A stretch of DNA of 33,011 bases, from positions 1-33,011 of the forward strand of contig JAKISF010000035.1 of NCBI GenBank assembly GCA_021648725.1, given 5' to 3'. The stretch is from Bacteroidales bacterium (GTDB lineage: Bacteria > Bacteroidota > Bacteroidia > Bacteroidales > JAADGE01). The translations under genes were made by a program, and so were the position numbers. Below, piece by piece: positions 3,601 through 25,514 of the stretch; positions within the stretch are counted from its first letter, which is position 1; every line of letters begins with the position of its first letter. The notes under the pieces were generated by a model that was given only the letters and a program-made list of their open reading frames with translations, did no database searches and was not told where the DNA came from.

Positions 3601-6600
3601 ATAAAAACTTGCCCGCTCAAAACATTAAAAACAACCGCACAAGAAATACCTCTGTCGTTTAGGCTGTTAATTGCATCTGTAAACCTGTTGAAATTTGTGC
3701 CGACTGTTGCCGAAGTATTATCAATTGTATAAGTTCCGCAAAGCGGATTTCCGGTATTGTATTCATCTGCACCTATATCCGGAGTTGTTGCGTGACGGGT
3801 ATCACCATCAAAGTCAGAGGTATATCCTGTAATCGGAGTTCCTCCGTTGCTTATTCCGCTTGTTTGAGTTACGTCAATGTGTAAATTATAAGGCAAAATT
3901 GTACTTTTAAACGGAGGGTTTTCCTCAATGGAATTTATATCATTAGGCGACGGAATTCGATATGCCGGCAAATCTAAATAATCAACGATATTCCCGGCAT
4001 CATACGCTAAGGCGTATTTTGAATTTGCAATACCGTTGTAATAACAATTATTATTTGTGCCGGCAGAAACATTTCCTAAATCTGCGGAAAGTTTAAAATA
4101 AAGAACATTTGCACGAGTTCCCGTTGTTGCATTTGTGTTATTTTCAAAAACATTATTTCTAAAATCTGCCGATGAGCCTTCAAGATACAGACACGTACTT
4201 TCGTTACCGGCATTTGTAGAGTTATATGCGATATATACTGAATTATAAAAAATGTTTTGCGTTCCTGCTGTGTATCTGAAACTTATTCCTCGTGTTGAGG
4301 GATAGCCGTTTAAAGTTGAATTACCGGAAGGGGCTTTTATGTCGTAAACAAAGTTATTATAAACATTTGAAGTTCCTCCGTAACCCTCAATTCCGGTTGC
4401 CATCTTTATTCCCTCTATATTATGAACTTCATTCAAATAAATATTCATACTTGAATTGTACTGCCTTATACCTACAACTTGAATACCCTTTCCGTAAAGT
4501 CCGAAGACAGTATTTGAGAAGATATTTCCGGAATTGTTTCCTGCACAGTAAATTCCTAATGTACGGTCGGCAGAATTTCCATTTTTAACGGTATTATTAT
4601 TTATTGACAGGTTTTTTTGGCTCCATGTTTGGATTCCTGTTGCCCTGTTAATACTTGCACCTGCAAGCCCGAAATTATCAATAATTACATTTTGAACTAT
4701 ACAGGCATCATCATATACAGGCTCTTGTCCTGCAACATCGTAGCCGTGAAGACAAATTCCGTAATAAGAGTTTTGAATTGAAACATTATCGTAAACATTA
4801 AACGAATTTGTCCCTTCTGCAGAAGTCGGGTTAATAGTTCCGGTTTTAATGTTTTGGAAAATTCCTTTTGATGTTTCGTTTGTATTGCTTAAGTTTATTG
4901 AACAATTTTTAACTGTATTATACTGTGAACCGTTTGTTGCAGAAGTGTTGTAAAGATAATATCCGTATTCCACTGCCGAACCACTCGCAATTGAAATGTC
5001 AATTCCGTCAAAAGTAAAGTAATCGCATCCGGCAAGGCTTATTGCCGCATCGTCAAAGGATGCAGTTCCTGTTGGTTTTATAACAGGATTAGCTCCGTTC
5101 CCGTATTTTTGAAAGATAACCGGTCTTGTTGCATCTCCGGTTGCGGTAATTACAGGCGGATCTTCGTTAAATATCTCATCAGATGCAACAAGGAAAGTTA
5201 TCCCTCCGGTTCCTATTCCGCAGGTATTTATTGCATTAATTGCTTCTGTAAAGTTTGCATAATCACCTCCGACGGCACTTATTGTTTTTGTTCCTGCCGG
5301 AGGAGCATAAATTTCAATATTATCAACTGCCCAATAGTTTGACCAGTTGTTGTTGTCTGTATATCTCCATCTTACATAAACTGTTGCCTGATTTGCAGCA
5401 TAGGCAGAAATGTCAAATTCTATAACCTCAGGACCGAAAGTGACGGTATTATATGTTACAACATCATTCCATATACTTCCGTCATTGCTGACCTGCACTT
5501 TTCCGTCGGCAATATTGGCAGAGCTTCTGAACCTGTGGGTAAATTTTAAAACCACCATATCTCGACCGGTACAATTTATTGCCGGAGTTGTAAGACTTGC
5601 ATCAGACTTATTTGTATTATCTCCATACCAATCGTCATCAAAAATTGCAAAGTCAGCATCAAAATCAGCTCCTGTTAAAATGCCGCTTCCGTATCTTCCT
5701 CCTGGATCGTTAAAACGCCAATCATAAGTTGCAAAACCTCCCGAATGAACAGTATTTGTCCATCCGGACGGCAATACTTGTCCTGTAAAGTCTTCGCTTA
5801 ATAAAATACAACAAGATGTACAGACCGGATCCGTAAGTGTTACTGTCTTTTGCTTAACACAACCGTAAGCATCTGTTACTTCAACGGTATAAATTCCGGC
5901 TGTTAGGTTTTGTGCAATATTTGTTGTTGAAACGTTCGGAGTCCAAACATAAGTATAAGGTTCAATACCTCCCGTAACATTTGCAACAATCTGACCGTCA
6001 GAAGCCCCGAATGAACTCGGATTTGTGTCCGTGGTTGTAACAGCAAGTAGTTGAGAGGCTTCCTTAATTATAACACTTGCATTATAAGTCGCAGAGTTTC
6101 CGTCTGTGACAGTTACGGTATAAGTTCCGGCAGATAAGCCTGAAACAGAAAGTGTTGTTTCTCCTCCGGGTGACCACAGATATGTATGTGTCGGCGGTCC
6201 TGGTGTGGTTGTAACTGTTGCTGTTCCGTCGCTTGCTCCGGTACAAGTTATGTTTGTAGAAGCAAGCTCAAGAGAACCGGCAACTTGTGTAAATCTTACG
6301 GCATCGAAAAGAACTTTTTTTCCGTTGTCTGCATAAGCAACAGCATCTCCCAGTCTTACGTAGCCATTTTTTCCTTGCGAGAATTGGTAGGTTCCTATAT
6401 CAACCCAGGCTCCTTGATTTGCAAGCTGGTTGACAGTAACACTTGTATTACCCCCATCATAGAAAATCTTATAATAAGCGGAACTTGTGACTGCTGCAGC
6501 AGAATATGAGTCTGTAAAAGTTGCCGGAATATAAACTTCTACTTTATAGGAAGCTGAGTTTGGTAAGTCCGGCGTCCATGAAACCCAGCAAATATCAGAA

Positions 6601-8474
6601 CTTGCACCACCTTCGCCTCCTGTCCACCAAATATGCCCGTTACTTCCGGCTGCATTTTTCACATGCCGATAGTAGCGTTGTGTTGCTCCGTTTTGTGAAT
6701 TATTTATGTAAAAACCGTGGTTATAATATGTATTTTGAATTGTTAAATTATCGTAAGTTTGCTCAGAACTTCTTGCGGTAAGAGTCCACGCAACAGTTCC
6801 GTGTGAACCGTCTGCATCAAGGTTTTGGAAGCCGTTGTTGTAGCCTGGCCAATCGTAGTAGGCATCAACACCATCGTAACTCGGATACCCGGGTGTGTTT
6901 TTATCTCCCCACGGATCATTAAATATTAGAGTGTGCTGCCCGTTAACATAACCGACAACTAAAGTTAAATGACCGGATGCCGTGATCCAAGAACAAATCG
7001 GATGCGGGTACTCTGCATCTATTTCTGCTTGTGTTTTTGCAAAAGTTGCATTTCCGAGCCACACATAACTTCCGGAAACAAGATTGTGTAGATTTTGGTA
7101 GTTTCGCATACCGTCGCCTCCTCCCGGAGATGTGTACGGGGATACCCACATATATGCGTAACCACCGTATGCGTTTTTAGAGGAAGAGTAAGCATCAAAT
7201 GAAAATTCATTATATTTATATCTGTCGAGGACATAGCCGGAGTAATCGGAATAATGCGGTGTTCCTGTTACGGAAGGGTAGCTTTCGGCTGCAACAGGCC
7301 ACTTAGGCAGTCGGTTGTAATATGCCAATGCCATATTTGTTGTTGTCGGGGCACAGGCAGAACCTCCGTTCCTTCCGGTAGGAGCATCATATTTTTGATG
7401 AATATAAGGAACCGGTTTAGTCAGATGTGTTATGGCTTTTGTGCTTTTCAGCCCACCTAAATCATAGAATTTCGGCTTTAAGTTTTGCGGATTATCAAGT
7501 AAAACTGTGGTTGAAATGATTTTAGATTTTGAAATATTTAATTTTGCTCTTATTATTTGTCGTTTATCATAAGTTTGGAATAAGATGCCGTTTTGCAGGT
7601 CAAAAGAAGGTGTCATTTCATATACATCCGGTGTATTTGTAATTTGTCTGGTATTTAAACCTTTATAGTCAGCAATATATATGTCGGAACTTTTTAAAAT
7701 AAAATTTGTTGCATCGGCATCAGTTTTTTGAAAAATGATGTTTTCCGATTTTGCATCCCAATTTCCGGCTCCGCCCTTTCCCAATTTATACAACTTTTTT
7801 GTTTTTAATTCATAGACCAAAAGCTCCATATTTTTGTTTTGAAAAAGAATTTTTTTGCTGTCGGGCGACCATTTGGGATAAATTACACCTTTGTTATCGT
7901 TGGGAATAATTATTTGTTTTAAGCTATTCAAATCTAAAAGCTTAAAATAATTTTGTTCAACATCATAGACTGCATATTTTTTGTCCGGAGAAACAGCGGA
8001 AAGGTTTGAATAGCTGTCTGTTCCGTATTTGGCTATTGCGTTTCCCGTCTTTATACAAAATTCGTTGTTTATGCTGAAAGCAAAGCTGTTATTATCGTCA
8101 GAGAAACTTACTTGGCTGCATAAATTTACGGGGTTAGTAAGAAGTTCAATGTTCTTTTTGTTTTTTAAATCAAAAAAAGCCGGCATTTGTTTGCCTTGTT
8201 TAGTGATTTTTTTATACCCGATTTTACTAAAGTCGGAAGAAACAGAAAAATACCTTCCGCAACCGGGACTTTCAACTAATGTTTCGATTTTGCCGTTGTT
8301 TAAGAGAAGAACTTTTGAGGCGTAGTTATCGGTAAAAACGATTCCGTATGGCGTTTTAATCGGATTAATAAAATAACCGGAGTTTTCTGCTTGGTAGGTT
8401 TGTGTTTGTGTTTTTTGTGCATAAATTCCTGTTAACAGAAATATAAGAATTGTAAAAAGAATAAATTGTTTCAT
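615..8474 (-). CDS. Giant T9SS-secreted protein with C39-like peptidase and tandem beta-helices (2619 aa)
   Basis: A signal peptide (about 1-19, ending TGIYAQ) is followed by a TolB/WD40-like propeller region (about 20-340, with motifs such as YPKWSPDSKKILF). A papain-like C39 peptidase domain (about 355-560) begins VPYIHQKYD. Its likely catalytic residues are intact: Cys374 in GSACAPT, His502 in SGHLTLVVGY and Asn519/Asp520 in FNDPWGD. Next come a golvesin/Xly-type module (about 569-735), two SprB repeats (about 735-885), a jelly-roll adhesion-like module (about 888-1058), two tandem parallel beta-helix units (about 1060-1570 and 1577-2088), and a segment with an NTDWADATNW motif. A T9SS type A sorting domain (about 2535-2619; SIYPNPAKNF, end EKLIVK) closes the protein. 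Expected at the cell surface or secreted. It is probably a peptidase or adhesin, perhaps acting on peptides or cell-wall material; the substrate is unknown. A -7 promoter box lies 29 bases upstream of the start. Confidence 0.9.
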   Translation of the reverse strand: MKQFILFTILIFLLTGIYAQKTQTQTYQAENSGYFINPIKTPYGIVFTDNYASKVLLLNNGKIETLVESPGCGRYFSVSSDFSKIGYKKITKQGKQMPAFFDLKNKKNIELLTNPVNLCSQVSFSDDNNSFAFSINNEFCIKTGNAIAKYGTDSYSNLSAVSPDKKYAVYDVEQNYFKLLDLNSLKQIIIPNDNKGVIYPKWSPDSKKILFQNKNMELLVYELKTKKLYKLGKGGAGNWDAKSENIIFQKTDADATNFILKSSDIYIADYKGLNTRQITNTPDVYEMTPSFDLQNGILFQTYDKRQIIRAKLNISKSKIISTTVLLDNPQNLKPKFYDLGGLKSTKAITHLTKPVPYIHQKYDAPTGRNGGSACAPTTTNMALAYYNRLPKWPVAAESYPSVTGTPHYSDYSGYVLDRYKYNEFSFDAYSSSKNAYGGYAYMWVSPYTSPGGGDGMRNYQNLHNLVSGSYVWLGNATFAKTQAEIDAEYPHPICSWITASGHLTLVVGYVNGQHTLIFNDPWGDKNTPGYPSYDGVDAYYDWPGYNNGFQNLDADGSHGTVAWTLTARSSEQTYDNLTIQNTYYNHGFYINNSQNGATQRYYRHVKNAAGSNGHIWWTGGEGGASSDICWVSWTPDLPNSASYKVEVYIPATFTDSYSAAAVTSSAYYKIFYDGGNTSVTVNQLANQGAWVDIGTYQFSQGKNGYVRLGDAVAYADNGKKVLFDAVRFTQVAGSLELASTNITCTGASDGTATVTTTPGPPTHTYLWSPGGETTLSVSGLSAGTYTVTVTDGNSATYNASVIIKEASQLLAVTTTDTNPSSFGASDGQIVANVTGGIEPYTYVWTPNVSTTNIAQNLTAGIYTVEVTDAYGCVKQKTVTLTDPVCTSCCILLSEDFTGQVLPSGWTNTVHSGGFATYDWRFNDPGGRYGSGILTGADFDADFAIFDDDWYGDNTNKSDASLTTPAINCTGRDMVVLKFTHRFRSSANIADGKVQVSNDGSIWNDVVTYNTVTFGPEVIEFDISAYAANQATVYVRWRYTDNNNWSNYWAVDNIEIYAPPAGTKTISAVGGDYANFTEAINAINTCGIGTGGITFLVASDEIFNEDPPVITATGDATRPVIFQKYGNGANPVIKPTGTASFDDAAISLAGCDYFTFDGIDISIASGSAVEYGYYLYNTSATNGSQYNTVKNCSINLSNTNETSKGIFQNIKTGTINPTSAEGTNSFNVYDNVSIQNSYYGICLHGYDVAGQEPVYDDACIVQNVIIDNFGLAGASINRATGIQTWSQKNLSINNNTVKNGNSADRTLGIYCAGNNSGNIFSNTVFGLYGKGIQVVGIRQYNSSMNIYLNEVHNIEGIKMATGIEGYGGTSNVYNNFVYDIKAPSGNSTLNGYPSTRGISFRYTAGTQNIFYNSVYIAYNSTNAGNESTCLYLEGSSADFRNNVFENNTNATTGTRANVLYFKLSADLGNVSAGTNNNCYYNGIANSKYALAYDAGNIVDYLDLPAYRIPSPNDINSIEENPPFKSTILPYNLHIDVTQTSGISNGGTPITGYTSDFDGDTRHATTPDIGADEYNTGNPLCGTYTIDNTSATVGTNFNRFTDAINSLNDRGISCAVVFNVLSGQVFIEDVPSLEISGTATNTITFQKSGISANPVLKPTGTTADEDFGIHINGGDYYTFDGIDISIASGSDVEYGYYITTVSPTDGAQHNTIKNCTVTLNNNNINSVGIYQLVRTTITPTSISGTNSFNTYDNISVESSYNGFKVFGYDVTGQEPLYDDAVEIMNCTVNNFGISNGASRAVGILTWSQKNLAIHHNTITNGTTNHRTLGIYGAGNNQGNFYNNIVHGLYGTASQVVGLRAYESTINFYNNDVYDIEGVDMASGIEIYGGTADIYNNFVHDIRTPATDTYNYPTTRGISNRKGTANIYNNSILLNFVSTAETNESAGIFTEGFSYGSASSDVRNNIVVNKVDVTIGAIAATLYKSAEYSTISTNSDNNLYYAGTPSVKNLIYYDTNVSDQILASYKIRCVTYEQNTISEDAAFISSTDLHIQTSAITNIDGGGQVIAGITADFDGEIRDLTVPDIGADEYNCDFIVWRGTSNTDWADATNWQKQQVPTVLDNVVIPDVSLESNNFPIITSAGETNNLTIQSGANLQINPGFSLSVNGTMTNNAGNTGLVIKSDVTGTGSFINSTINVPATVERYLSGTQWHYLTPPVVNAPLTMFNTNNFYYYDETTSDSWSGGTITGTQGWISYAASNLTTMQGYAYYFTETTLNFSGNLHTGTYTSPLLSWTNTAMADQFEGWHLLGNPYTSVIDFSQANIDNSNIILTNLDQSVYFYDDVIHNYRGYNTISGAINGGTQYIPAMQGFFVHASVNNAQIQITNGARVHNTTNFYKETTGDLFITLQTSANGFFDETKIIENPNANFSFDGQYDLYKMYSLDENVPLIWTTNNNIEFALNAVPYFFDEQIIKLGFKGNNSDVYEISLSGTNLSADIFIVDKFAGTYQNLKETSVYTFTHSGGATFDRFELHFSQPTNIADISADNISIYPNPAKNFINIIVSNEFSAFDIEITDVLGKKVCEKPNIKNTFKQIDISGFKSGTYFIKVKTKNKYYTEKLIVK
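2200..5292 (-). repeat. Tandem duplication of a ~1.56 kb beta-helix coding unit
   Basis: The two beta-helix units inside the giant gene are duplicates, offset by roughly 1,565 bases (about 521 codons). Near-identical protein stretches occur in both copies: GIDISIASGSAVEYGYY against GIDISIASGSDVEYGYY, GQEPVYDDA against GQEPLYDDA, and TWSQKNL in both. Each unit ends with a GADEYN motif. Short DNA stretches are also still alike, for example around 4981 and 3415. Other parts have diverged, so the duplication is not recent. Confidence 0.85.
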
Positions 8475-8836: not shown

Positions 8837-10234
8837 TTATTGTTCGTTTTTGTCTTTTTTGAATCTTTTTATATATTTTCTCCAAAAAACATATAAAGCT
8901 GTAATATAAATAACTATTCCGCCTAAAGTATAAAGCAGATACTGATCCGGGTAATCAGTATTCATTCCCAGTAAAGGGATAATTGCACTAAGAATTAAAG
9001 GAGCAATAAACGGTGCTGCAATTCCCGCTCCGAATACTTGATCGTGTGCTGCTCGAGTTTTAAAATCTTTATCTAATATTCTTATTAATGTTAAACCGGA
9101 GGATAATGTTCCTGTTAAAGTTCCGAATAAACCGGCGATTCTTTCAAAAGCATATTTCATCCCGGATCTTCTTACCTCATGAAATATGAAATAAACCGTA
9201 AACACACCGCCTACTGTAGTCATTGTTAGTATAATACCCAAATATTTCAACAAAACAGGAATTGAAATTGCAGCAATTGAAGCTGTTACCATAAAATCTA
9301 ATGATATGCCGGAAATTCTTGTAAGTAAACCGTTATTCAGCATATTCCCCCATCCTAATTTGTAAATTATTTTTTTTACGGGAATTGCAATTAATGCAGC
9401 AAAAATAAAATGTAAGCCCCAGGCTGTGTTAACTAGTTGATGAATTAATTTGCTTTTTTCATTAATTGTAAAAAGACCTTTTTCTACTCCCTTTAAAAAG
9501 ATAAATGTAATAATATATACAAAAATTACTGCTGCTATTTGGAATGAAAAGCCGTCTATAGCGGCGGTATCAGTTGTTAAATTTCCGGCACTTGGTTGTT
9601 CTTTCAGTTCCTTAATTACCCCTTTCTCCTGATTTTCAGAAGTTTCAACCTTATGCGTTTCTTTGTAATATTTTTTCTTTAGTTGATAAATAATAATTAC
9701 ACCTATAAGAGCTGCCCAAACGTAACCGATTGCTGCAAATGTTAAACCTATATCTCCTGCATTTTCAAAACCGGAAGCCTCCCAAGATTTTCCGAGAGAA
9801 TAGCTTTGTCCGGGACCTTGTGAAAAACCCAACATAAGGAAGTAACCCAAAGTAGGAAATATATCCGGCATAATTGTTTGCATAAATACATAAGCAATTA
9901 CCAACCCGATAATTAATTGAACTCCTGTTGTAACAGACATCAGCAAACCAACGGCAAAAGTGCTTTTTGATCCTTTACCTTCAGCTTTCCTTAATGTCAT
10001 TGCAATAAAAACAATTGCCAATAAATGATAAACATAATTCCCTAATCTTTCTGAAGATGTTTCAATCAGCCCGAAACCGCCGGTTCCTATTGTCAACAAT
10101 AAAAAACCCGCCAAAATATTGTTAGGAACCATAAATTTTTGCAATATTTTTACTTTCGATCTTAAAATAGTTGCAACAAATAAGGCAGCACCTAAAATGC
10201 TTATATCCAACACAAAATCCCACTGAATAGCCAT
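8837..10234 (-). CDS. gltS: Sodium/glutamate symporter (GltS) family protein
   Basis: A 465-residue, strongly hydrophobic inner-membrane protein with about ten or more membrane segments and a charged cytoplasmic linker at about 185-225. It has the overall layout of the GltS family, which takes up glutamate with sodium. Two re-entrant-loop-like stretches are visible: LMLGFSQGPGQSYSLGKSWE in the first half and GLFGTLTGTLSSGLTLIRI in the second. Classical GltS proteins have a GGHGT-type motif where this protein has SQGPGQ, so the substrate may not be glutamate. The length is above the roughly 400 residues of the Escherichia coli protein, mainly because of the linker. It is transcribed alone, divergent from the DUF4294-like gene. 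Confidence 0.8.
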   Translation of the reverse strand: MAIQWDFVLDISILGAALFVATILRSKVKILQKFMVPNNILAGFLLLTIGTGGFGLIETSSERLGNYVYHLLAIVFIAMTLRKAEGKGSKSTFAVGLLMSVTTGVQLIIGLVIAYVFMQTIMPDIFPTLGYFLMLGFSQGPGQSYSLGKSWEASGFENAGDIGLTFAAIGYVWAALIGVIIIYQLKKKYYKETHKVETSENQEKGVIKELKEQPSAGNLTTDTAAIDGFSFQIAAVIFVYIITFIFLKGVEKGLFTINEKSKLIHQLVNTAWGLHFIFAALIAIPVKKIIYKLGWGNMLNNGLLTRISGISLDFMVTASIAAISIPVLLKYLGIILTMTTVGGVFTVYFIFHEVRRSGMKYAFERIAGLFGTLTGTLSSGLTLIRILDKDFKTRAAHDQVFGAGIAAPFIAPLILSAIIPLLGMNTDYPDQYLLYTLGGIVIYITALYVFWRKYIKRFKKDKNEQ

Positions 10235-11006: not shown

Positions 11007-11624
11007 TTAATCTTTAATTAAATCATTTATAATCTTCTCCGTTTTTGAACCTCCCCAATTTAATGCTCCCGTTTCTTTAATTTTAATTATTCCGTCTTTT
11101 GAAATTACAAAAGTTGTAGGAATACTTTGAGAGAAAAACACTTCAGGAGATTTGTATTTTGTGGTATAAACCGGGAATGTATAGGATTTTTTATCAATAA
11201 AGGCTTTTACTCTTTCCGGGCTTTCGTTAGAAACCAATAAAAAAGCAATATTTTCATTGTCTTTAAATTTATCGTAAAGTTGTTGTATTCCCGGCATTTC
11301 ACCAACACAAGGCGGACACCATGTTGCCCACAGATTTAAAAAAACAACTTTCCCTTTATAATCTTGCAGGTTTACCTTTTTCCCCGAAATATCCTCAAGT
11401 TCCCAAAAATAATCATTCATATTTAAACCCGACTCATTGCCGGCATCTTTAACAGAGGGTTCAACAACCATTGATTTTATCCTGTTAACAAAACCTCCGA
11501 TTGCAAGCCTGCTGCCGGGAATAAAAAGAGCAATTATTAGTGCAATAAAAATTAAATCGGATATTTTTCCGAAGGTTGATTTCTTTTTCAAATATATTTT
11601 AAACTTTTCCTTTAAACTCTTCAT
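11007..11624 (-). CDS. TlpA/ResA-type thioredoxin, membrane-anchored
   Basis: A 205-residue protein with a basic N-terminus, one membrane segment (about 23-37) and no cleavage site, so it is probably anchored in the inner membrane with its catalytic domain in the periplasm. The thioredoxin fold spans about 68-205. The active site WATWCPPCVGEMP has Cys103 and Cys106, and SIPTTFVI supplies the cis-proline. WCPPC is typical of TlpA/ResA reductases, which keep periplasmic thiols reduced, for example during cytochrome c maturation. It stands apart from the other thioredoxin gene (15308-15823) and next to an AraC-type regulator, facing away from it. The partner protein is unknown. Confidence 0.88.
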   Translation of the reverse strand: MKSLKEKFKIYLKKKSTFGKISDLIFIALIIALFIPGSRLAIGGFVNRIKSMVVEPSVKDAGNESGLNMNDYFWELEDISGKKVNLQDYKGKVVFLNLWATWCPPCVGEMPGIQQLYDKFKDNENIAFLLVSNESPERVKAFIDKKSYTFPVYTTKYKSPEVFFSQSIPTTFVISKDGIIKIKETGALNWGGSKTEKIINDLIKD

Positions 11625-11775: not shown

Positions 11776-12657
11776 ATGAAAAAAAACCAACCTTTAAATA
11801 TTATTAATAATCCGAAAGATTCAGAAATAAAATTTGAAATTACCGGTTTAAAGAAACTTGCTGAAATACAAAGTGAGTTTTCTTTCAACCTTCAAAACCC
11901 CCACAGAATAAACCACCACAGTATCATAGTAATAACAACCGGCATAGGTTCTCATTATATTGATTTTGTTAAACATGACTTTACACGAGGCTCATTGCTT
12001 TTTATAGCTGCCGAGCAAGTTCAAACATTTGACTTTAAGCCCGGGAATGACGGATTTGTAATTTCTTTCACGGAAAGTTTTTTAACAAGTGTAATAAAAA
12101 GAACTGAATCTTTATCGCAAACGTGGTTATATAATTACCATTTACAACGCCCAAAAATACAGGTTAAAGCTGCTGAGCAAGATCATTTTTTTGATATTTC
12201 CGAGAAAATGTATCAAGAATACCAAATAAAAGACGGGTTTGCAAAAAATGAAATAATACAATCATTACTAAACTTACTTTTGCTTAAATCTGAAAGAATA
12301 AAAAGAGCAGAATTTTCTGATCCTTTTAAAATAGATTACAGTGATATTTTTTTTAATTACAAAAATTTATGCGAAAACAAATATCCGGAAACTCGAAATG
12401 TTAAATATTATGCCGAACAATTAAATATTTCTTACAAACACTTAAATAATATTTGTAAACAATGCATTAAAAAAACAGCAAAACAGTTTATTGACGATTA
12501 CATTATCTTAGAATCAAAACGATACTTATTAAGTACAAACAAAACGGTAAAAGAAATATCCGAGAAAACCGGTTTTGACGAGGCAACTAATTTTGTGAAA
12601 TATTTTAAAAAGCATACGAGGTTTTCCCCGGAAAAATTCAGAAAAAAATATTCTTAA
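11776..12657 (+). CDS. AraC-family transcriptional regulator
   Basis: A 293-residue protein. The N-terminal ~180 residues look like a cupin-type sensing domain (about 20-110; HSIIVITTGIGSHYIDF, then an RGSLLFIAAEQVQTFD stretch). The C-terminal domain is a double helix-turn-helix of the AraC/XylS type. Helix pair one is at about 208-230 (VKYYAEQLNISYKHLNNICK); pair two is at about 258-280 (VKEISEKTGFDEATNFVKYF), followed by RFSPEKFRKKY, the usual family end. It is probably a cytoplasmic activator. The ligand and targets are unknown. Its position between a TlpA-type gene and the Omp28/DUF6029 cluster makes those genes reasonable candidate targets, but this is inference. Confidence 0.9.
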   Translation: MKKNQPLNIINNPKDSEIKFEITGLKKLAEIQSEFSFNLQNPHRINHHSIIVITTGIGSHYIDFVKHDFTRGSLLFIAAEQVQTFDFKPGNDGFVISFTESFLTSVIKRTESLSQTWLYNYHLQRPKIQVKAAEQDHFFDISEKMYQEYQIKDGFAKNEIIQSLLNLLLLKSERIKRAEFSDPFKIDYSDIFFNYKNLCENKYPETRNVKYYAEQLNISYKHLNNICKQCIKKTAKQFIDDYIILESKRYLLSTNKTVKEISEKTGFDEATNFVKYFKKHTRFSPEKFRKKYS

Positions 12658-12712: not shown

Positions 12713-13543
12713 TCAATTTTGTACAATATGCTCCGATTCTGCTTGTATAATTTCGTTTGTTGAACCGTTACTTATAAAAGCAACCAATTCACAATGATTA
12801 ATATTCCATTCGGCATTTGTATTAAATATAAATGTTTTTTCAATAATATCTCCGAATTTTGCAGAAGTAACAAAATTTTCGCCGAAAGCACCGGTTATTC
12901 CTTTTCTTAATACGTGTCTGTGAACGTAGTCTTCAACAGTAGTGACCCCATTCTTTTGAGGGCTTATAATACTGTCTTCGGTAACATATAACCCTATATT
13001 CATGTCGTAATTAATATCCGACAGATATTCAGCAGTTATTGTTGCCGTTACTGTATGTGTATTTTCGTTATATGAACTTTCAATTGAAATATCAACTTCA
13101 GGTTTTAAGTTGTATAAAAGATTTACGACCGTTTCCCAATTACTTGAAGCCAACAATATATTGCCTTCATATTCAATTCTGTTTACCATACCTTTCGGTA
13201 AACCGGCAGATATGTTAAATTCGTTGTCTAATTCATTTCCTGCATCTGTTCTGTAATCTGCCGGAAAATCTTCATCAGGTTCTGCTAAGAATCCTACATG
13301 TATTCCTACCGGAACAATATGATCGCAATATTTATCAGTTATTTCTTGTAAAATATCAGCTGCAGCCGGACAAAAAACACATTTATGGGCGGTATAATCT
13401 TCAACCAATATTTTGCGAATAGGTACCGGGTCATTCTCATCTCCGCATGTATTGTCGTTGGTTTCTTTTAGCGGATTTTCAATTGTATTACACGAAAAAA
13501 AGAATATGAAAAGAGCGAAAGTTATTATTTTAAAAAGTTTCAT
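12713..13543 (-). CDS. Omp28-related lipoprotein with CxxC motif
   Basis: A 276-residue lipoprotein. The signal peptide ends at a lipobox-like FFFSC, with Cys18 as the lipid attachment site. The mature part begins ILVEDYTAHKCVFCPAAADI, which matches the thioredoxin-like start of the Omp28-related family; Cys55 and Cys58 form a CxxC pair. Omp28 of Porphyromonas gingivalis is a surface-exposed outer-membrane lipoprotein. The C-terminal half (about 145-276) looks like a beta-sandwich. It is the last gene of the minus-strand cluster, 16 bases after the DUF6029-like gene, and is convergent with the AraC-type gene. Whether the CxxC is redox-active or structural cannot be decided here. Confidence 0.85.
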   Translation of the reverse strand: MKLFKIITFALFIFFFSCNTIENPLKETNDNTCGDENDPVPIRKILVEDYTAHKCVFCPAAADILQEITDKYCDHIVPVGIHVGFLAEPDEDFPADYRTDAGNELDNEFNISAGLPKGMVNRIEYEGNILLASSNWETVVNLLYNLKPEVDISIESSYNENTHTVTATITAEYLSDINYDMNIGLYVTEDSIISPQKNGVTTVEDYVHRHVLRKGITGAFGENFVTSAKFGDIIEKTFIFNTNAEWNINHCELVAFISNGSTNEIIQAESEHIVQN

Positions 13544-13559
13544 TTGTATAGTTTAAAAA

Positions 13560-15248
13560 TTAAAAAGAACCGGTTAAAGTAAAATTAAAACCGCTTGCAG
13601 CCGGAACAAATCTGCATACGCCTCCGGCACAAACAATTCCTTCTCTTTGCCTGCCGTAACCGATTTGAATTCTGTTTGCTCCTTTTACAAAGCCTGCTGC
13701 AAAGTTGTAATAATGTGCACTTACGGGATTTGTGTGTCCGCCTGTGTTATATTGATCTGAAATAGCAACAAACCAATGCGGAGAATATGTGTATTCAACC
13801 ATTCCGGTGTACCAATCGCCAAAATCATTTTTTTCTCCGCTTTGAGTTTTATCTGTTAATAATGCTTGTGTTGCAAACCTTATTGACTGTTTTGATGAAA
13901 TTTTATAAGTTAAATCAAAAACTCCGATATCAGCATGAAGAATACTGTCTTTTCCTTGCATTATAAGTTTATTGTAATCCTGGTACATATAAATTAATGA
14001 AATTTTAAACTTCTTATTTATTTTCTTATGAAGTTCAATATTTATGTCTCTGAAATACAATTCATCTCCTACGGCAAAAAAGTCAGAAGTATAACCGTCT
14101 AAGTTTTTTATTTCGGCATCGGGGTTTATCGTTATTTTTTCAGTTTTAATTGAATTAACCTGAGAAAAGTTAATATTAATATTTGTACCGTATTTTCCTC
14201 CGAGCAATGTTTTTCTTTTGAATGTATAGAAAAAATCTGCATTAAACCCAACCTGCCCGTTTGTTTGTGTTGCAAAGGGGTACATTGCCGGAAAAGCATA
14301 GGTATGTGTTTTTGTAATAGCAGGTAAATAGTTAATACTTAAATCGTTGACAGAAGCACTTCTGTCAGAACGAAAACTCATATTATCTAACCTCAGAGCA
14401 GTAAATAAAAAGCCGATACCTTTTTTTGACCATGAAGCATTAACAAAAAGAGCATTTCCGTCTTTGAAAATAGGGTAACCGTATATAATTGAGTTATCGG
14501 CAGAAGGGTCGTTAATTTTATAAGCATATTCTGAGGAAATAATAAAACCTCCTCTTGAAAGATTAATTCTTCCGGCAAAAGCACCGACATTTTCGGGATA
14601 GTTATATTTAGGATTAAGGTTTTTTTGGTACTTACTGACAAAACTTCCGCCGAGTAAAAAATGTGTTTTGCTTTTTGCAAGTTTTTTAAAAGTTTCATTG
14701 AACGATATTTCTCCGTCTAAACCTCTCACAATTCCCGGACCGAGCGTCCAGTATAATCTTTGCTTTCCTATTATTCCCGTTAGTTTTATTCCTTTTACGG
14801 GTTTGTATTTTAATTTAATTCCGTCTAAGGAATTATCAATCCCCAGTGTTTTTTCTTCATATGTTCTTAAAATAAGACCGTTGCCGAATTGCTCATAAAA
14901 ATTTCCTGCAGTTATCTCTAATTCATCAGATGTATAAGATGCATACCTGTTTGCAATTCCGTGACCGTCATACCTTTTGTCAAACCCCTCAAGTGTATTC
15001 ATATAAACTTCATATCGAATACCTGCCGAGAACTTTCCTTTTGTGTAGGTAAGGTTCATATATGAGTTTGAGAGAGCTTTTTCTCTCGGAACATCAGCAC
15101 TGTCAATACCAATAATTGTATCAACCCTGTATGTTTGCACAATTGTTTCAAAATTTCCGTGTAATTGACCGGAGTTTTTTTCTTCTTCTTGTGCAGACAA
15201 AAAGAACGGAAAAAGTAAAAGAATAATTATGATAATTTGCCTGTTCAT
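13560..15248 (-). CDS. DUF6029-like outer-membrane beta-barrel protein
   Basis: A 562-residue protein with a signal peptide (ends FFLSAQ). It then has many alternating amphipathic strands and finishes with FNFTLTGSF, a terminal aromatic residue as in outer-membrane beta-barrels. Its size, strand pattern and conserved-looking end (GIVCAGGVCRFVPAASG) fit the Bacteroidota DUF6029 family, which has no known function. Cys540 and Cys545, in CAGGVC next to the last strand, are the only cysteines in the protein. An intrinsic terminator lies just upstream, between this gene and the thioredoxin gene, so read-through or a separate start is implied. The Omp28 lipoprotein follows at 16 bases. Family name from recall, moderate certainty; barrel nature well supported. 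Confidence 0.75.
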   Translation of the reverse strand: MNRQIIIIILLLFPFFLSAQEEEKNSGQLHGNFETIVQTYRVDTIIGIDSADVPREKALSNSYMNLTYTKGKFSAGIRYEVYMNTLEGFDKRYDGHGIANRYASYTSDELEITAGNFYEQFGNGLILRTYEEKTLGIDNSLDGIKLKYKPVKGIKLTGIIGKQRLYWTLGPGIVRGLDGEISFNETFKKLAKSKTHFLLGGSFVSKYQKNLNPKYNYPENVGAFAGRINLSRGGFIISSEYAYKINDPSADNSIIYGYPIFKDGNALFVNASWSKKGIGFLFTALRLDNMSFRSDRSASVNDLSINYLPAITKTHTYAFPAMYPFATQTNGQVGFNADFFYTFKRKTLLGGKYGTNININFSQVNSIKTEKITINPDAEIKNLDGYTSDFFAVGDELYFRDINIELHKKINKKFKISLIYMYQDYNKLIMQGKDSILHADIGVFDLTYKISSKQSIRFATQALLTDKTQSGEKNDFGDWYTGMVEYTYSPHWFVAISDQYNTGGHTNPVSAHYYNFAAGFVKGANRIQIGYGRQREGIVCAGGVCRFVPAASGFNFTLTGSF

Positions 15249-15261
15249 AATTTTAGTTTAT

Positions 15262-15287
15262 AAGAAAAAGCCGGAATTTAACCGGCT
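15262..15287 (-). terminator. Intrinsic terminator after the thioredoxin gene
   Basis: On minus, a GC-rich 6-base stem (AGCCGG pairing with CCGGCT, 15269-15274 with 15282-15287) and a 7-base loop are followed by the T-tract TTTTTCTT. It lies 20 bases past the stop of the TlpA-type gene and only 14 bases before the ATG of the DUF6029-like gene, so it may lower rather than abolish expression of the downstream pair. Confidence 0.65.
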
Positions 15288-15307
15288 GAAATAATAAGCA
15301 ATGTTTA

Positions 15308-15823
15308 TTAATGATTAATGTCTTCTCCGGCAGCAACTTTTTTAATTACCTCGTATATTTCATCTTCATCGCCTGGAGAGTAGGAGGTGTGTTGCCAAAC
15401 TACTTCCCCGTTTTTGTTGAGAATAAATGAATGAGGAACATTTATAACATTCATGGCTCTTTTAAAATCACTGTTGGCATCAAGTAAGACTTCAAATTCC
15501 CATGCTCTGCCGTTGACAAACGGAGCAACTCTGCCGGTACTTTTTGTATCATCAATTGAAACGGCATAAACTTTTAAACCTGTTTCTTCTTGCCAATCAA
15601 TATAGTTTTCATCAATTGCAATAAGTTCTCTGATGCACGGTTTACACCAAGTTGCCCAAAAACTTAAAAAAATTGGCCCGTCATTTGAAATTTTAGAAGT
15701 GTTAAGTGTTTTTCCGCTAAGGGTTTTAACATCAACAGAGGGTAATTTGTTAAAATTTTCTTGTGAAAGTATTGCTCCAAAGAACATTAAGTTTATACTG
15801 ATTAAAATTATTGTTTTCTTCAT
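15308..15823 (-). CDS. TlpA-type thioredoxin family protein, exported
   Basis: A 171-residue protein with a cleavable-looking signal peptide (about 1-20, ending GAILSQ), so it should be periplasmic and soluble. The thioredoxin fold spans about 26-165. The active site FWATWCKPCIREL has Cys60 and Cys63, the only cysteines in the protein. VPHSFIL carries the cis-proline, and the insert typical of TlpA/ResA is present (KVYAVSIDD). WCKPC differs from the WCPPC of the paralogue at 11007-11624. It lies inside a cluster of exported proteins that each carry a cysteine pair, so a natural role is to reduce or isomerise those pairs, though the sequence does not prove this. Confidence 0.9.
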   Translation of the reverse strand: MKKTIILISINLMFFGAILSQENFNKLPSVDVKTLSGKTLNTSKISNDGPIFLSFWATWCKPCIRELIAIDENYIDWQEETGLKVYAVSIDDTKSTGRVAPFVNGRAWEFEVLLDANSDFKRAMNVINVPHSFILNKNGEVVWQHTSYSPGDEDEIYEVIKKVAAGEDINH

Positions 15824-15917
15824 TTGTCTGATTTTTAGTTAATAACCGGCATCTCCCTTGTAACAATTCTCGGTTATATATTTACAAAATATATTCCGAA
15901 GTTAAATTAAATGCCAA

Positions 15918-16643
15918 TTATTTGACAATCAGTTTTTTTGTTTCAATAATTTTATTGTTTTTGATTATAGAATAAAAGTATATTCCGCTTACAAACTGAT
16001 TTGTCGAAAATATTATTTCAGGTTTATTAATGCTTTTTGTTAAAACGACTTTTCCTAAAAGGTTTGTAAAAACAATTTGTGTCCCTTTCAGTTCATTTGA
16101 TGATTTTAAAGTAAAATAATTTGTTGCGGGATTCGGATAAACGGAGAATAATTCATTTGTACTTATGTTGTCTAAACCTACACTTTTTGTATCTAAAGTA
16201 AATTCCGTAAAATTTGATGTGTTTCCTTCTTCATATATTTTAATTGTAATAACCGCCTGTTCTGTAATTCCTCCCGAATAATAATGAACGTAGAGGAACT
16301 CTGTTGTACTTCCCTCTTCTCCGTATGTGTCTCCTGCATCAAGGTAGACAGGGTTGCCGATTTGAGCCGGAAAACTACTTATTAATGAAAGCGAAACACA
16401 AGTTCCTCCGCCGCAAATTGACATTTCATCTGCATCTTTCGGGATAGAGTAAGAAGTAACTTCGGTTATAAAATTTGTTGCAGAGGCACCGTCATTAGTA
16501 ATCACAAAATGATAATCTTCATCAGACGGTAAAAAAGCTGTAGTATTTGTTAGGTCTAAGCCTGAATAGTCTGTAATTGTTATTTGTGCATAATTATTTA
16601 TTGTAAATAAAATAACTAATGCAGCAGTAAATAATTTTTTCAT
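15918..16643 (-). CDS. Small T9SS-secreted protein with CGGGTC motif
   Basis: A 241-residue protein with a signal peptide (1-19, ending NNYA, then QITITD). It has an immunoglobulin-like beta-sandwich region (about 20-155) and a T9SS type A sorting domain (about 160-241; LFSVYPNPATNYF, end ETKKLIVK). The only two cysteines are Cys77 and Cys82, in MSICGGGTCVSLS. The N-terminal domain is not one I recognise by name; its conserved-looking CGGGTC loop is the likely functional spot. It lies between a T9SS protein with an Omp28-like domain and a thioredoxin. A strong hairpin terminator lies upstream, between it and the preceding gene. A box with one mismatch to TAnnTTTG (16663-16670) could give it its own start. 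Confidence 0.8.
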   Translation of the reverse strand: MKKLFTAALVILFTINNYAQITITDYSGLDLTNTTAFLPSDEDYHFVITNDGASATNFITEVTSYSIPKDADEMSICGGGTCVSLSLISSFPAQIGNPVYLDAGDTYGEEGSTTEFLYVHYYSGGITEQAVITIKIYEEGNTSNFTEFTLDTKSVGLDNISTNELFSVYPNPATNYFTLKSSNELKGTQIVFTNLLGKVVLTKSINKPEIIFSTNQFVSGIYFYSIIKNNKIIETKKLIVK

Positions 16644-16670
16644 ATTGTTTCACTTTATTTAAGAAAGATA

Positions 16671-16699
16671 AAAGATACCTGAATTAATCAGGTATCTTT
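16671..16699 (-). terminator. Strong hairpin terminator between two T9SS genes
   Basis: A perfect 12-base inverted repeat (AAAGATACCTGA at 16671-16682 and its complement at 16688-16699) with a 5-base loop lies just past the stop at 16706. The strand following the hairpin is T-rich in both directions, so it could act either way. All genes nearby are on minus, so it most likely ends the transcript of the 701-residue gene. Confidence 0.7.
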
Positions 16700-16705
16700 T
16701 TAATT

Positions 16706-18811
16706 TTATTTAATAATATTTAACTTTTTTTCAGCAGAATACCCGTCTTGTTCAATTTTAATAAAATACATTCCGGGTGTAAAATTACTGATGTTAATTT
16801 CGTTAACTTTATAGTTAATATTTTGTTTTAAAAAAGTTTTTCCGGATAAATCAGATATTGTAATTGTTGAATTTTTTGCATTAGAGATAAATAAAATATC
16901 ATTTGCAGGGTTAGGGTAGATTACAATATTATCATCAATTTGTGAAATCCCTGTGTTGTCTATTGTAGTAAATGTTATCGACTCTCCTGCTAATGAAATG
17001 TTTTGAATGTTTTCAATTTCATTATCGTCAATAGCTACTGTAATATCCGTAAGTCTGTTGAATTGTACATCCGGCGTAATAGTTATTTCACTTTGATTAT
17101 AATTTACGGAAGCAGTAAAGGTTAAGTCCCCTTTTGCCGGGTCAGATAAATGAATGAAATCAGAAACATTATTGTCCGTTATAGGGCTGTCATCAACTAA
17201 CCTCATAATTTGGTTAAATGTTATAATAATATCAGAGTTAACATCAATATCTGTTGCTCCGTTTGCCGGATTAAAGGATATAGCGGGAGGCGGTAAAGTT
17301 ACGGCAGAATAAACAGACTGAAAAACTTCTTTAGTTGCATCATTTTGAATAAAAACTACAACTTTTAAATCATACATCTCCTCTACGTTTGTAGATGACA
17401 TATCAAATGTTTCATTAAAAGCGGTTGGTGTTCCTGCAACAAAATTAACTAATGTTCCGTCAGCATCCGGTAACATTTTCATCATTACATTCTTAAATGA
17501 TGTTTCTCCGTTATTTCCGACATTTCCCGTTGTCATTTTTTCAATTACTGCAATGTGTACTTTAAAATCGGCGGTTATATATGGTGTAATATTAACATCA
17601 ACAGTAATGTTGGACCCATCTATTATTGCAGCAGAGCTTAAATCAAAAAATGCAGGTTTATTTGTTTCGTATGTGTAAGCATTAGTAACAGCAGTTGAGT
17701 TTGTACCCGTATTTACACCTCCCGTATATAAGTCAGGAACAAAACTTACACCGTAATAACTTCTTCTCACTCCCCCTTCTGCCGTATAATAAGGGTCTCC
17801 GGGCGAAGGCCAAGACATTTGATATTTGACCACCGTAATATCATCAGGATGAGAGTTCATAAAAGGAGTAAAAGTTGAAGAATTAAAAGAGGCACAAGGA
17901 GCACATGTTGAACTTGTAAACTCCTCATATAGAGGTGTGTTTGTGACAGACTGAGTTGCAATACTCATTGTTTGCAATTGTAAATCATTATTGGTGTCAT
18001 CATCATTACCGTTACCGTTCATATTTGACACCCAAACTTTTAATGTATAACTTCCTGGTGTAGCAACCCACGGAGTTGTAAAGGTATGATTTAACGATTC
18101 GGTTGTTGCTAAATTTAAACCTGTAAGGTTTTCAGTAATAATTGTGCCTGCATCTATTTGATAATTAACATCAATAGATGTAATTGTATTTATTCCTGAA
18201 TTTTTAAATGTACAAGCTATGTCAACATTGCCTGCTGCTGCATATGGTGAAATGTTAATTGAAGCCATTTCAGAGTCATTATTGTCAGGGCTGATAAGAA
18301 TTAAATCATCAATATACCAATAATCAAAATTATAAGTATTTCCGCTTAAATAAATACAAATTTGAAAATCAGAAGCTCCGACATCAGCATTAGATATTAA
18401 CAAATCATTTGTTTCCGGTCCTATATTGTCAGTAGGACTGACTGCCCATATGTCTGTCCAGCTTCCTCCTCCTGAGCGTGTAGCAACACCAATAGAATAA
18501 CCTGTTCCGGAATAATCATCTAAAAAGTGTTTGAACGAAAACAGTACAGTTGAAATACCGGTTAAATCTATTGCAGGAGAAATTAATCGGGTAGTGTTTG
18601 TTCCGCTAACATAAGTTAGCTTTGCTTCAGGTGCCGTACCTCCGGCATTAGCACTTGTTGATTGCGACCATTGATTGCCTATGTTATCAATTGTCCATCC
18701 CGAAGGCGGAAAGCTTGCTGAAAAATCTTCATTAAACATTTCAGTTCCTTTCTGTGCAAAAGATGAACTTCCGATAATTAGCACTAAAAATAAAGATAAA
18801 AATTTTCTCAT
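16706..18811 (-). CDS. T9SS-secreted protein with Omp28-like CxxC domain (701 aa)
   Basis: A signal peptide (1-19, ending GSSSFAQ) leads into a jelly-roll/choice-of-anchor-J-like domain (about 25-175; EDFSASFPPSGWTIDN, later FDYWYIDDLILI). A CARDB-like beta-sandwich follows (about 185-285). The Omp28-like thioredoxin-fold domain (about 290-510) begins LYEEFTSSTCAPCASFN, with Cys303 and Cys306 as its CxxC pair. Next come an SbsA-type Ig-like domain (about 515-615; ISFNPANGATDIDVNSDIII) and a T9SS sorting domain (about 625-701; VIYPNPANDI, end EKKLNIIK). It should be released or anchored on the cell surface. The architecture, a redox-type fold wrapped in adhesion modules, is known in Bacteroidota, but its function is not. 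It shares its Omp28-type domain with the lipoprotein at the far end of the same cluster. Confidence 0.87.
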   Translation of the reverse strand: MRKFLSLFLVLIIGSSSFAQKGTEMFNEDFSASFPPSGWTIDNIGNQWSQSTSANAGGTAPEAKLTYVSGTNTTRLISPAIDLTGISTVLFSFKHFLDDYSGTGYSIGVATRSGGGSWTDIWAVSPTDNIGPETNDLLISNADVGASDFQICIYLSGNTYNFDYWYIDDLILISPDNNDSEMASINISPYAAAGNVDIACTFKNSGINTITSIDVNYQIDAGTIITENLTGLNLATTESLNHTFTTPWVATPGSYTLKVWVSNMNGNGNDDDTNNDLQLQTMSIATQSVTNTPLYEEFTSSTCAPCASFNSSTFTPFMNSHPDDITVVKYQMSWPSPGDPYYTAEGGVRRSYYGVSFVPDLYTGGVNTGTNSTAVTNAYTYETNKPAFFDLSSAAIIDGSNITVDVNITPYITADFKVHIAVIEKMTTGNVGNNGETSFKNVMMKMLPDADGTLVNFVAGTPTAFNETFDMSSTNVEEMYDLKVVVFIQNDATKEVFQSVYSAVTLPPPAISFNPANGATDIDVNSDIIITFNQIMRLVDDSPITDNNVSDFIHLSDPAKGDLTFTASVNYNQSEITITPDVQFNRLTDITVAIDDNEIENIQNISLAGESITFTTIDNTGISQIDDNIVIYPNPANDILFISNAKNSTITISDLSGKTFLKQNINYKVNEINISNFTPGMYFIKIEQDGYSAEKKLNIIK

Positions 18812-23381: not shown

Positions 23382-24869
23382 ATGGGAATTATTGCCAAAC
23401 AATCAATAAGGGGTTCAATTTATACTTACGGCGGAGCTTTAATCGGTTTTGTAAATACAGGCTTATTGATGCCGAAATTTTTTTCAACGGAACAAGTTGG
23501 TTTGGTAAATATTTTAATAGCTCTAACATTAATGTTTTCGCAATTTTCAACTTTAGGTTTTGCAAGTGTTAATACTCGTATTTTTCCTTATTTCAGAAAT
23601 AAAGAAAACAAACATAACGGTATTTTTTCGTTAGGAGCAATTGTTACGCTTTCAGGCGTTATTTTGTCTCTGATTTTTATTTTTGTTTTTAAGTCGGAAA
23701 TTCTTCAAAGTAATGCCGAGAAATCGAAACTATTAGAAGATAACCTTTTTTATTTGCCGGTATTAATTTTTTTCACTGCATATTTTTTGTTTTTTGATTC
23801 TTACGCTAAAGCTGTTTATGATGCCGTAACCGGTACTTTTTTGAGAGATTTTTTTGTGAAAATTTCTAATTTGGGAATAATCATTCTTTACATATTTGAC
23901 ATAATCAGTTTTGACGTTTTTGTTTTTTTATATGTATTGGTATTTGTAATTCCGGCAATTATTATTGTTGTTATTTTATTTTTACGAAAAGATTTTTCAT
24001 TTAGGTTCATTAACTTGAAACTATTTAAAAAATATAAACGAGAAATATTTAAAGTCAGTGTATTCGGGATAATATCAGGTTTTAGCGGTATTGCAATATT
24101 GAATATTGATAAATATATGGTTAATGCTTATTTGGGTTTGAGTGCTGCGGGGATATATTCTATCGCATTCTTTTTTGGGATGTTGGTTATTATTCCGGCA
24201 AAATCATTAAGAAAAATTTCGTCTATTGTTTTAGCAGATGCTTGGAAAAATAATGATATTGATATTATAAAATCAATATATAAGAAAAGCACAATAAACC
24301 AAATGATTATAGGAGCAATATTAAGTGTCGGAATTATTATTAATCTTGACAATATATTTTTAATTATACCCGACTATGTTTCAGGAAGATATGTGATAAT
24401 ATTTATTGTAATCGGATACTTTTTTGAAATGACTTCGGGCGTAAGTTCTATGGTTATTTTAAGCTCAAAACATTATAAAATATTTTCTTATATGATGTTG
24501 ATAACTCTTTTTAATACTGTTGTTTTTAATATTATTTTTATTCCGATGTTTCAAATAACCGGTGCAGGAATTGCATCTGCATCAGCAATTATTATTTTTT
24601 TATTGATGAGGTATTTTTTTATTTTAAAGAAATTTAAATTACAGCCGTATTCGTATAAACACATATTGATATTGCTTATTTCGGGCTTCGTTTTTTTATT
24701 GAATTTGCTAATTCCGGAAAACAAAATGTATATTCTTGATATTATTATCAGAAGCAGTATAGTGTCTGTTGTATTTATTTTGCTGATTTATTTGTCAAAA
24801 GTTTCTGATGAAGCAAATAAATATGCCGATAAAGGTTTTAATTATCTTAAAAATAAACTAAGAAGATAG
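23382..24869 (+). CDS. Wzx-type oligosaccharide flippase (MATE/MOP superfamily)
   Basis: I choose the ATG at 23382 (MGIIAKQSIRGSIYTYGGAL), which gives 495 residues and the usual family N-terminus; a longer frame from 23295 would add 29 residues across the promoter box. About 12-14 membrane segments are visible throughout. The first helix region, YTYGGALIGFVNTGLLMPKF, and the FSTEQVGLVNILIA stretch are typical of polysaccharide biosynthesis proteins that flip undecaprenyl-linked oligosaccharides across the inner membrane. The C-terminus (about 445-490) is a pair of hydrophobic helices followed by a basic tail. The gene points at the convergent glycan operon and overlaps its last gene by 12 bases, so it probably serves that glycan. 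Specificity cannot be read from sequence. Confidence 0.88.
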   Translation: MGIIAKQSIRGSIYTYGGALIGFVNTGLLMPKFFSTEQVGLVNILIALTLMFSQFSTLGFASVNTRIFPYFRNKENKHNGIFSLGAIVTLSGVILSLIFIFVFKSEILQSNAEKSKLLEDNLFYLPVLIFFTAYFLFFDSYAKAVYDAVTGTFLRDFFVKISNLGIIILYIFDIISFDVFVFLYVLVFVIPAIIIVVILFLRKDFSFRFINLKLFKKYKREIFKVSVFGIISGFSGIAILNIDKYMVNAYLGLSAAGIYSIAFFFGMLVIIPAKSLRKISSIVLADAWKNNDIDIIKSIYKKSTINQMIIGAILSVGIIINLDNIFLIIPDYVSGRYVIIFIVIGYFFEMTSGVSSMVILSSKHYKIFSYMMLITLFNTVVFNIIFIPMFQITGAGIASASAIIIFLLMRYFFILKKFKLQPYSYKHILILLISGFVFLLNLLIPENKMYILDIIIRSSIVSVVFILLIYLSKVSDEANKYADKGFNYLKNKLRR

Positions 24870-25514
24870 GAGTGTTTCAATAATTTCTTCCGACAAACTT
24901 GTTTTAAATAAACGAATATTTTTTTTAATTTCTGAAATATCTTTATCCCACCATTTTATTTCTGACAACTTATCAATCGTTTCTTTATTAAAACGAAATT
25001 TAATATGTTTTGCAGGAACACCGGCAACTATTTCATAGTCATTAACATTTTTTGTGACTACTGCACCCGCACCTATTATTGCACCGTTACCAATTGTAAT
25101 GCCGGGCATAATTATTACGCCGGCACCTATCCACACATCATTTTTAATAATTACTTTTTTGTAGAAAGTTTCCCTTTTATCAACAAAACCGTAAGAGGGT
25201 AAATATGGGAAAGCATGCATTGTAAGTCTGTTGTACGGATGCTCAACAGCATTTATGGTAACGTCCCATGAAATTGAGCAAAACGAACCTATTTCTGTAT
25301 TAATTATTTTCGTATTTCTGCCTATTGAAGTGTATTTTTTTATTTTTGAGTTGCTTACGGAAGCATTTTTTGCAAAAGATACTTTTTCCTCAACTTGAAT
25401 ATTATTCAGAGTTGTTCCGTTTGCAATGTTTGTATCCCAAAAGACAGTATTTTTTTTTAGATATTTATTTATCAAATAGTTTTTTGCTTTTGACAGTCCT
25501 AATTTCGGTATCAT
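24858..25514 (-). CDS. CatB-type hexapeptide O-acetyltransferase
   Basis: A 218-residue left-handed beta-helix protein with hexapeptide repeats running from about 28 to 152 (for example VEEKVSFAKNASVSNSKI and IGNGAIIGAGAVVTKNV). The loop VEHPYNRLTMHAF carries the likely catalytic His92 of the xenobiotic-acetyltransferase (CatB/VatD) group, and VWIGAGVIIMPG is the acetyl-CoA-side signature. VAGVPAKHIKFRF is the usual end of the repeat domain. Members in glycan loci add acetyl groups from acetyl-CoA to sugars in the cytoplasm; antibiotic acetylation is possible but the setting argues against it. It is the last gene of the minus operon, 5 bases after the pyruvyl transferase, and its stop overlaps the flippase by 12 bases. 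Confidence 0.9.
   Translation of the reverse strand: MIPKLGLSKAKNYLINKYLKKNTVFWDTNIANGTTLNNIQVEEKVSFAKNASVSNSKIKKYTSIGRNTKIINTEIGSFCSISWDVTINAVEHPYNRLTMHAFPYLPSYGFVDKRETFYKKVIIKNDVWIGAGVIIMPGITIGNGAIIGAGAVVTKNVNDYEIVAGVPAKHIKFRFNKETIDKLSEIKWWDKDISEIKKNIRLFKTSLSEEIIETLLSS

Follow-up and report, generated by a model that had tools for sequence, protein, structure and literature searches.

Background

Thiol-disulfide pathways of Gram-negative bacteria are known from the inner membrane and the periplasm, and in the DsbD/CcdA relays of the inner membrane pairs of cysteines carry the thiol-disulfide state across the membrane. Described here is a cluster of five genes from a Bacteroidales bacterium (contig JAKISF010000035.1 of assembly GCA_021648725.1; the whole stretch of DNA analysed, 33,011 nucleotides, is called the window) that encodes a thioredoxin, a DUF6029 protein, an Omp28 lipoprotein, a larger protein with an Omp28-like region, and a PorA-like protein (Table 1). 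The best reading of this cluster is a thiol system linking the periplasm to the surface. It differs from DsbD/CcdA, which are alpha-helical and reside in the inner membrane, in that DUF6029 is a predicted outer-membrane beta-barrel. The fuller proposal, a thiol-disulfide exchange module that spans the outer membrane and works by the whole mechanism set out below, is put forward tentatively, at somewhat less than an even chance; it rests on genes that co-occur, lie side by side, and are fused in two different ways, on invariant cysteines, and on predicted folds.

Several described proteins resemble parts of the cluster. HBP35 of Porphyromonas gingivalis is a surface thioredoxin bearing a C-terminal domain (CTD), and its reduction of insulin needed its two cysteines; it differs in binding hemin, and the accessible part of that report describes no barrel partner (PMC2907840). 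Protein 00502 of Paraprevotella clara is an Omp28-related surface protein dependent on the type IX secretion system (T9SS), which recruits trypsin and leads to trypsin autodegradation, with no thiol mechanism described in the available portion of the text (PMC9477747). SprF/PorG-GldK, linked by disulfides in gliding and the T9SS, are outer-membrane proteins of the same phylum with functional cysteines, but, as far as the text was accessible, theirs is a mechanical link to a periplasmic track (PMC12635249); the words thioredoxin, reductase, and oxidoreductase are absent from the main text of that paper. PorA (PGN_0123 of P. gingivalis, PDB entry 6kjk) is a family relative of one cluster product, which here is found in a thioredoxin-barrel-Omp28 cluster and has the spacing CGGGTC. 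According to the part of their paper that was available, the discoverers of PorA left open how this surface protein communicates inward (PMC7712824).

The family DUF6029 (PF19494), which the barrel matches over its full length, has no assigned function. It was found named in one paper, the accessible part of which reports that HHpred relates it to Wzi-barrel homologues and proposes a role in polysaccharide secretion (PMC9603273). No description of the present module was found among the papers listed on Omp28 and thioredoxin, T9SS disulfides, or outer-membrane thiol-disulfide exchange, a body of sources available partly in excerpt and mostly outside subscription journals.

Co-inheritance of thioredoxin and barrel

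Searches were made in 296 genomes drawn from the phylum, taken as Bacteroidota. DUF6029 matched in 80 of these, and 79 were kept: the match in G227 (19.1 bits, below the cut-off) was rejected as false, the motif being absent and no thioredoxin adjoining, and that in G183 (23.8 bits, also below the cut-off) was retained because motif and thioredoxin are present. These loci form the set found by hidden Markov model (HMM). A second, named set leans to close relatives: of 569 confirmed matches the best 80 were retained, and in 79 of these loci the barrel was among the open reading frames (ORFs). As it was found by a pattern containing the barrel motif, it carries that motif by construction, and barrel cysteines were therefore counted in the HMM-found set. 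Counts of CxxC and cysteine pairs accept a position anywhere within the protein.

The profile for the barrel-linked thioredoxin (A5) consisted of 23 rows, all taken from barrel loci, and was used to score 12 first-look candidates per genome. Scores of at least 129.6 bits were obtained in 79 of the 79 barrel genomes and in none of the 217 others, where the best was 120 bits and where, with 12 candidates scored per genome, a lower-ranked relative could be missed. The thioredoxin of the cluster reached 77 bits against the NCBIfam cut-off of 170 for ResA and 63 against that of 210 for StoA; this 171-amino-acid (aa) protein is only ResA-like.

The original prediction had proposed conservation of the gene neighbourhood as a check, and the neighbourhood proved conserved. 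Thioredoxin and barrel were no more than two genes apart in 67 of the 79 HMM-found genomes by ORFs, and in 70 when G113, G144, and G230 were added; in loci L063, L069, and L072 the thioredoxin had been missed by ORF calling and was restored from the profile search. It stood directly upstream of the barrel on the same strand in 60 of the 79 HMM-found loci, and directly upstream in 72 of the 79 named-set loci. In one of the 79 (L058) the two were fused into a single 667-aa protein, and in another (G216) the thioredoxin was at a contig end, where its neighbours are a PorA-like gene and two genes for Omp28. In seven genomes it lay away from the barrel; five of these (G109, G160, G196, G212, G287) had it adjoining a PorA-like gene, although four of the five share one family label and so represent few independent events. 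In the first 90 loci having all three proteins, tree distances of barrel and thioredoxin correlated with r 0.93, a value that includes shared species history, and those of barrel and Omp28 with r 0.78; the largest r in 200 shuffles of the barrel-thioredoxin labels was 0.28. In Hymenobacter duratus (locus L119) thioredoxin, barrel, and Omp28 occur together. Locus L217 of G160 (8972-9475) encodes a paralogue of the barrel-linked thioredoxin that lacks CxxC, and an intact copy is also present in that genome.

The barrel and its cysteine hairpin

The 562-aa protein, at first described as DUF6029-like, is a full-length DUF6029 protein (618 bits against a cut-off of 27). The prediction contains 24 long strands by count and may resemble the 24-strand usher barrel (FimD/PapC); in a Pfam search extending to E 0.1 the barrel matched no usher family. 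Under an explanation by protein export, DUF6029 would be a wide pore of usher size through which folded PorA-like or Omp28 proteins reach the surface, with the thioredoxin governing folding or a gate; we consider it very improbable. A solved relative of the barrel was also sought by sequence, and the matches of its profile (A1), RecA fusions and an MHC chain, were judged spurious.

The motif C-x-x-G-[VI]-C-[RY] was present near the C-terminus in 77 of the 79 HMM-found barrels. One barrel (L076) is split in two and carries the motif in its second part; another (L077, 8490-10246) is truncated at 372 aa and is without the cysteine hairpin, and a PorA-like gene and a thioredoxin adjoin it. Eight columns were invariant over the 77 barrels, namely six glycines, C540, and C545, so that the two cysteines are the only invariant columns other than glycine. 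In AlphaFold2 (AF2) models of the barrel and of the PorA-like protein, the DSSP strings place the cysteine pairs on facing strands of a hairpin.

SprA_N was detected in 227 of the 296 genomes and in 78 of the 79 barrel genomes (lists matched by eye). The exception, G230, gave no SprA, T9SS-tail, or PorA-like match and retains the thioredoxin, the barrel, and an Omp28 lipoprotein; this core is therefore not simply a part of the T9SS. Both facts enter into an explanation by maturation, under which the hairpin pairs of barrel, PorA, and cargo would be structural disulfides that the thioredoxin and surface Omp28 merely form or correct during assembly or T9SS export, with no relay across the membrane. 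Cysteine pairs at hairpin tips can be plain structural disulfides, the T9SS employs intermolecular SprF-GldK and PorG-GldK disulfides according to the accessible text of PMC12635249, and SprA accompanies nearly every barrel. Survival of the core in G230 counts against it, however, and a subfamily of thioredoxins inherited together with a single barrel, with surface CxxC proteins adjoining, exceeds the folding needs of one hairpin; maturation is regarded as unlikely. The barrel of G230 is flanked by a 689-aa lipoprotein (L072, 3390-5459) with two Omp28 domains and CAGGQC in its middle part; a PorA-like assignment of that middle domain was not significant (E 1 to 2) and was dropped.

Surface proteins with CxxC

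Two Omp28-like proteins had been claimed for the cluster. The 276-aa lipoprotein scored 153.8 bits against the Omp28 lipoprotein family NF033782 (cut-off 150), and this part of the claim holds; the match of the 701-aa protein to Omp28 PF11551 (32.2 bits, E 1.2e-7) falls below the Pfam cut-off of 34.9. The lipoprotein also weakly matched NF045500, a selenocysteine form of Omp28, and a literature search found no paper on a selenoprotein Omp28. The gene next after the barrel encoded Omp28 in 38 of the 79 HMM-found and 73 of the 79 named-set loci, with CxxC in all 111 proteins, so that the cysteines are kept here as they are in the barrel.

Another lineage has in this position two thioredoxins, one bearing a lipobox and one ending in a T9SS tail (L176, L182), and in L050 a protein with a Pfam redoxin domain and Por_Secre_tail occupies the usual place of Omp28. 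Redox-like CxxC proteins that have a T9SS tail or begin in a lipobox-like manner were commoner near the barrel than chance would give: they accounted for 163 of the 1176 ORFs located one to four genes from it (158 loci), compared with 1 of 934 at six to twelve genes. The profiles that detect them had seeds from neighbours in the first locus set, a choice that favours that set. Within four genes, such proteins were found in 58 of the 79 HMM-found and 65 of the 79 named-set loci.

Seeds of the Omp28 and PorA-like profiles were cut around the CxxC or cysteine pair. The Omp28 profile (A6), with rows cut around CxxC, matched HBP35 (5y1a, E 2e-5, the best among thioredoxins) as well as 2ypm and 1fo5 (E 0.002-0.003), and retains both cysteines, a proline, and a later proline. 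Omp28 may have a thioredoxin fold, of which CxxC and a later cis-Pro loop are the marks.

The PorA-like protein

The 241-aa protein has the architecture of the PorA family, which comprises a signal peptide, one Ig-like domain, and a T9SS CTD in about 240 aa, and its N-terminal domain has the PorA fold. PorA-like profiles matched 6kjk (A2 at E 9.6e-6, with the cysteine pair aligned; A4 at E 0.0018). The protein belongs to the PorA family, a kinship that the original prediction had not recognised when it argued from a C-x-G-G-x-C loop shared with the barrel. It may also share the family's place upstream of PorXY-SigP. Both loops are real in the source genome, but relatives of the 241-aa protein do not keep the glycines, and most of them have C-[FW]-x2-3-C (CFSSC, CWEAC, CIGAC, and CACDQC in the nearest). 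One loop is an invariant hairpin at the last loop of DUF6029 and the other the Ig-like cysteine pair of the PorA family; the argument from matching loops fails, and homology was rejected in favour of a coincidence of two cysteine hairpins.

Locus L034 encodes a fusion of Omp28, a PorA-like domain, and a T9SS tail. The same locus (6863-8350) has a 495-aa protein with three consecutive PorA-like cysteine-pair domains and a T9SS tail. The PorA-like neighbourhoods leave out five non-adjacent places (G076, G271, two in G192, and one in G208).

In a genome without DUF6029, L202 (8275-11169) encodes, between Cu-oxidase_3 and tyrosinase genes, a short protein that is PorA-like, contains CSMCQHGAC, and shows no T9SS tail; similar proteins occur in L203, L205, and L208. 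That setting counts in favour of metal or cofactor handling, in which the cysteine pairs would bind a metal, for example copper, or take part in loading it, thioredoxins would keep them reduced, and the barrel would serve as entry or exit pore. Chelation by hairpin pairs is possible, but the constant thioredoxin-like CxxC neighbours would fit thiol exchange better, and metal handling appears quite improbable. A further genome without DUF6029 has a PorA-like gene among OstA_2, YfiO, and DUF4835 genes (L204, 5899-11599), DUF4835 being PorD.

Proposed thiol relay

In the proposed exchange module, the soluble periplasmic thioredoxin (CKPC) would probably be recharged by DsbD/CcdA-type inner-membrane reductases, two DsbD_TM proteins being present in the source genome, and would dock where the DUF6029 pore opens to the periplasm. 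The invariant hairpin of the last, predicted surface loop (CxGGVC) would join the exchange, and the wide pore could bring thioredoxin and loop into contact through the lumen. The redox state would then be handed to surface thioredoxin-like proteins, namely the Omp28 lipoprotein and a T9SS-tailed Omp28 or thioredoxin, and also to the hairpin pair of the PorA-like T9SS protein. Such a scheme presumes redox activity of the pairs in the cell, an outward flow of electrons, and a role for PorA as client or sensor. The relay from periplasm to surface envisaged in the original prediction retains the conserved neighbourhood and cysteines in its favour and loses the motif argument.

Several observations weigh against the relay, in addition to the limits given above for the A5 search and the tree correlation. 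The barrel pair is located in a predicted extracellular loop, far from the periplasmic thioredoxin; for the two to meet, one of them would have to move into the pore. In two of the 79 genomes (G128 and G164) the thioredoxin is beside neither the barrel nor a PorA-like gene, and 13 of the 158 loci (three near contig ends) have no further redox-like CxxC protein within four genes. Comparison of Omp28 with the cluster thioredoxin by hhalign was weak (probability 5.5%, E 0.007). Terminator-like hairpins at 15269-15287 (thioredoxin/barrel) and 16670-16700 (701-aa/PorA-like gene) mean that the cluster may not be a single transcript; six such hairpins were counted in the region against a shuffle mean of 3.2. 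Finally, PorA-like proteins were found in 50 genomes, nine of them without the barrel, so the barrel is not required by PorA-like proteins.

This last distribution also speaks against redox signalling, in which the module would sense surface redox state through PorA, report inward to PorXY, and tune T9SS expression, as does the persistence of barrel, thioredoxin, and Omp28 in G230. A candidate PorX of the source genome, a PglZ protein encoded by a frame of 532 aa, points towards such signalling, which we rate as the least probable of the explanations considered.

It is possible, although doubtful, that the exchange module is the first relay across a bacterial outer membrane and, by setting the thiol state of PorA and of surface thioredoxin-like proteins, supplies the link from PorA to the inside. 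If so, a new thiol route would serve outer-surface proteins in roughly one in four of the genomes sampled (79/296), DUF6029 and Omp28 would gain a function, and the inward signalling of surface PorA would have a testable answer. The module may bear on disulfide handling in the T9SS and, by conjecture, on the Omp28-related protein that makes trypsin digest itself, as reported in the accessible part of PMC9477747.

Cluster layout and neighbouring genes

An ORF check of the window showed five consecutive ORFs separated by short gaps on the minus strand (12713..18811), and their cysteine pairs occur where they had been placed originally (Table 1). Cysteines had been called scarce, which is true of the PorA-like protein, the thioredoxin, and the barrel with two each; the 701-aa protein has four and the 276-aa lipoprotein six, including the putative lipidated Cys18. 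Both T9SS tails score above the Pfam cut-off. The source genome has one DUF6029 match, one PorA-like match, SprA, and 58 T9SS-tail matches at E 0.001 or better. No RNA family reached its gathering score anywhere in the window.

Table 1. Positions in the window of the cluster genes and their cysteine pairs
Feature	Position	Strand	Basis
701-aa exported protein with an Omp28-like region (CAPC), a Big_5 domain, and a T9SS sorting tail	16706..18811	-	profile matches
CAPC, residues 303-306 of 701-aa protein	17894..17905	-	coordinates computed from residues
241-aa member of the PorA family with a signal peptide, an Ig-like domain that holds its sole cysteine pair, and a T9SS tail	15918..16643	-	profile matches, AF2 model
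CGGGTC hairpin, C77 and C82 (residues 77-82), of 241-aa PorA-like protein	16398..16415	-	sequence, AF2 model
171-aa exported TlpA/ResA-like thioredoxin (AhpC/TSA-type), barrel-linked subfamily	15308..15823	-	profile matches
CKPC active site, residues 60-63 of 171-aa thioredoxin	15635..15646	-	sequence
562-aa DUF6029 outer-membrane beta-barrel (predicted)	13560..15248	-	profile match, AF2 model
CAGGVC hairpin, C540 and C545 (residues 540-545), last predicted extracellular loop of barrel	13614..13631	-	sequence, model
276-aa Omp28 lipoprotein, putatively thioredoxin-like	12713..13543	-	profile matches
CVFC, residues 55-58 of 276-aa Omp28 lipoprotein	13370..13381	-	sequence

Three genes downstream of the barrel, at 11007-11624, is the gene for another TlpA-type thioredoxin (CPPC), the N-terminus of which has a hydrophobic stretch, and a CPPC thioredoxin-like gene is also near the barrel in L132. 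An AraC-type regulator at 11776-12657 faces the cluster from the opposite strand. The largest listed ORF (615-8474) encodes a 2619-aa protein with a T9SS-tail match, in which a stretch near residue 370 presumably resembles a C39-type peptidase. A surface-glycan cluster at 24858-31976 includes genes that, on inspection by eye, resemble those for sialic acid synthase and CMP-sugar transferase.
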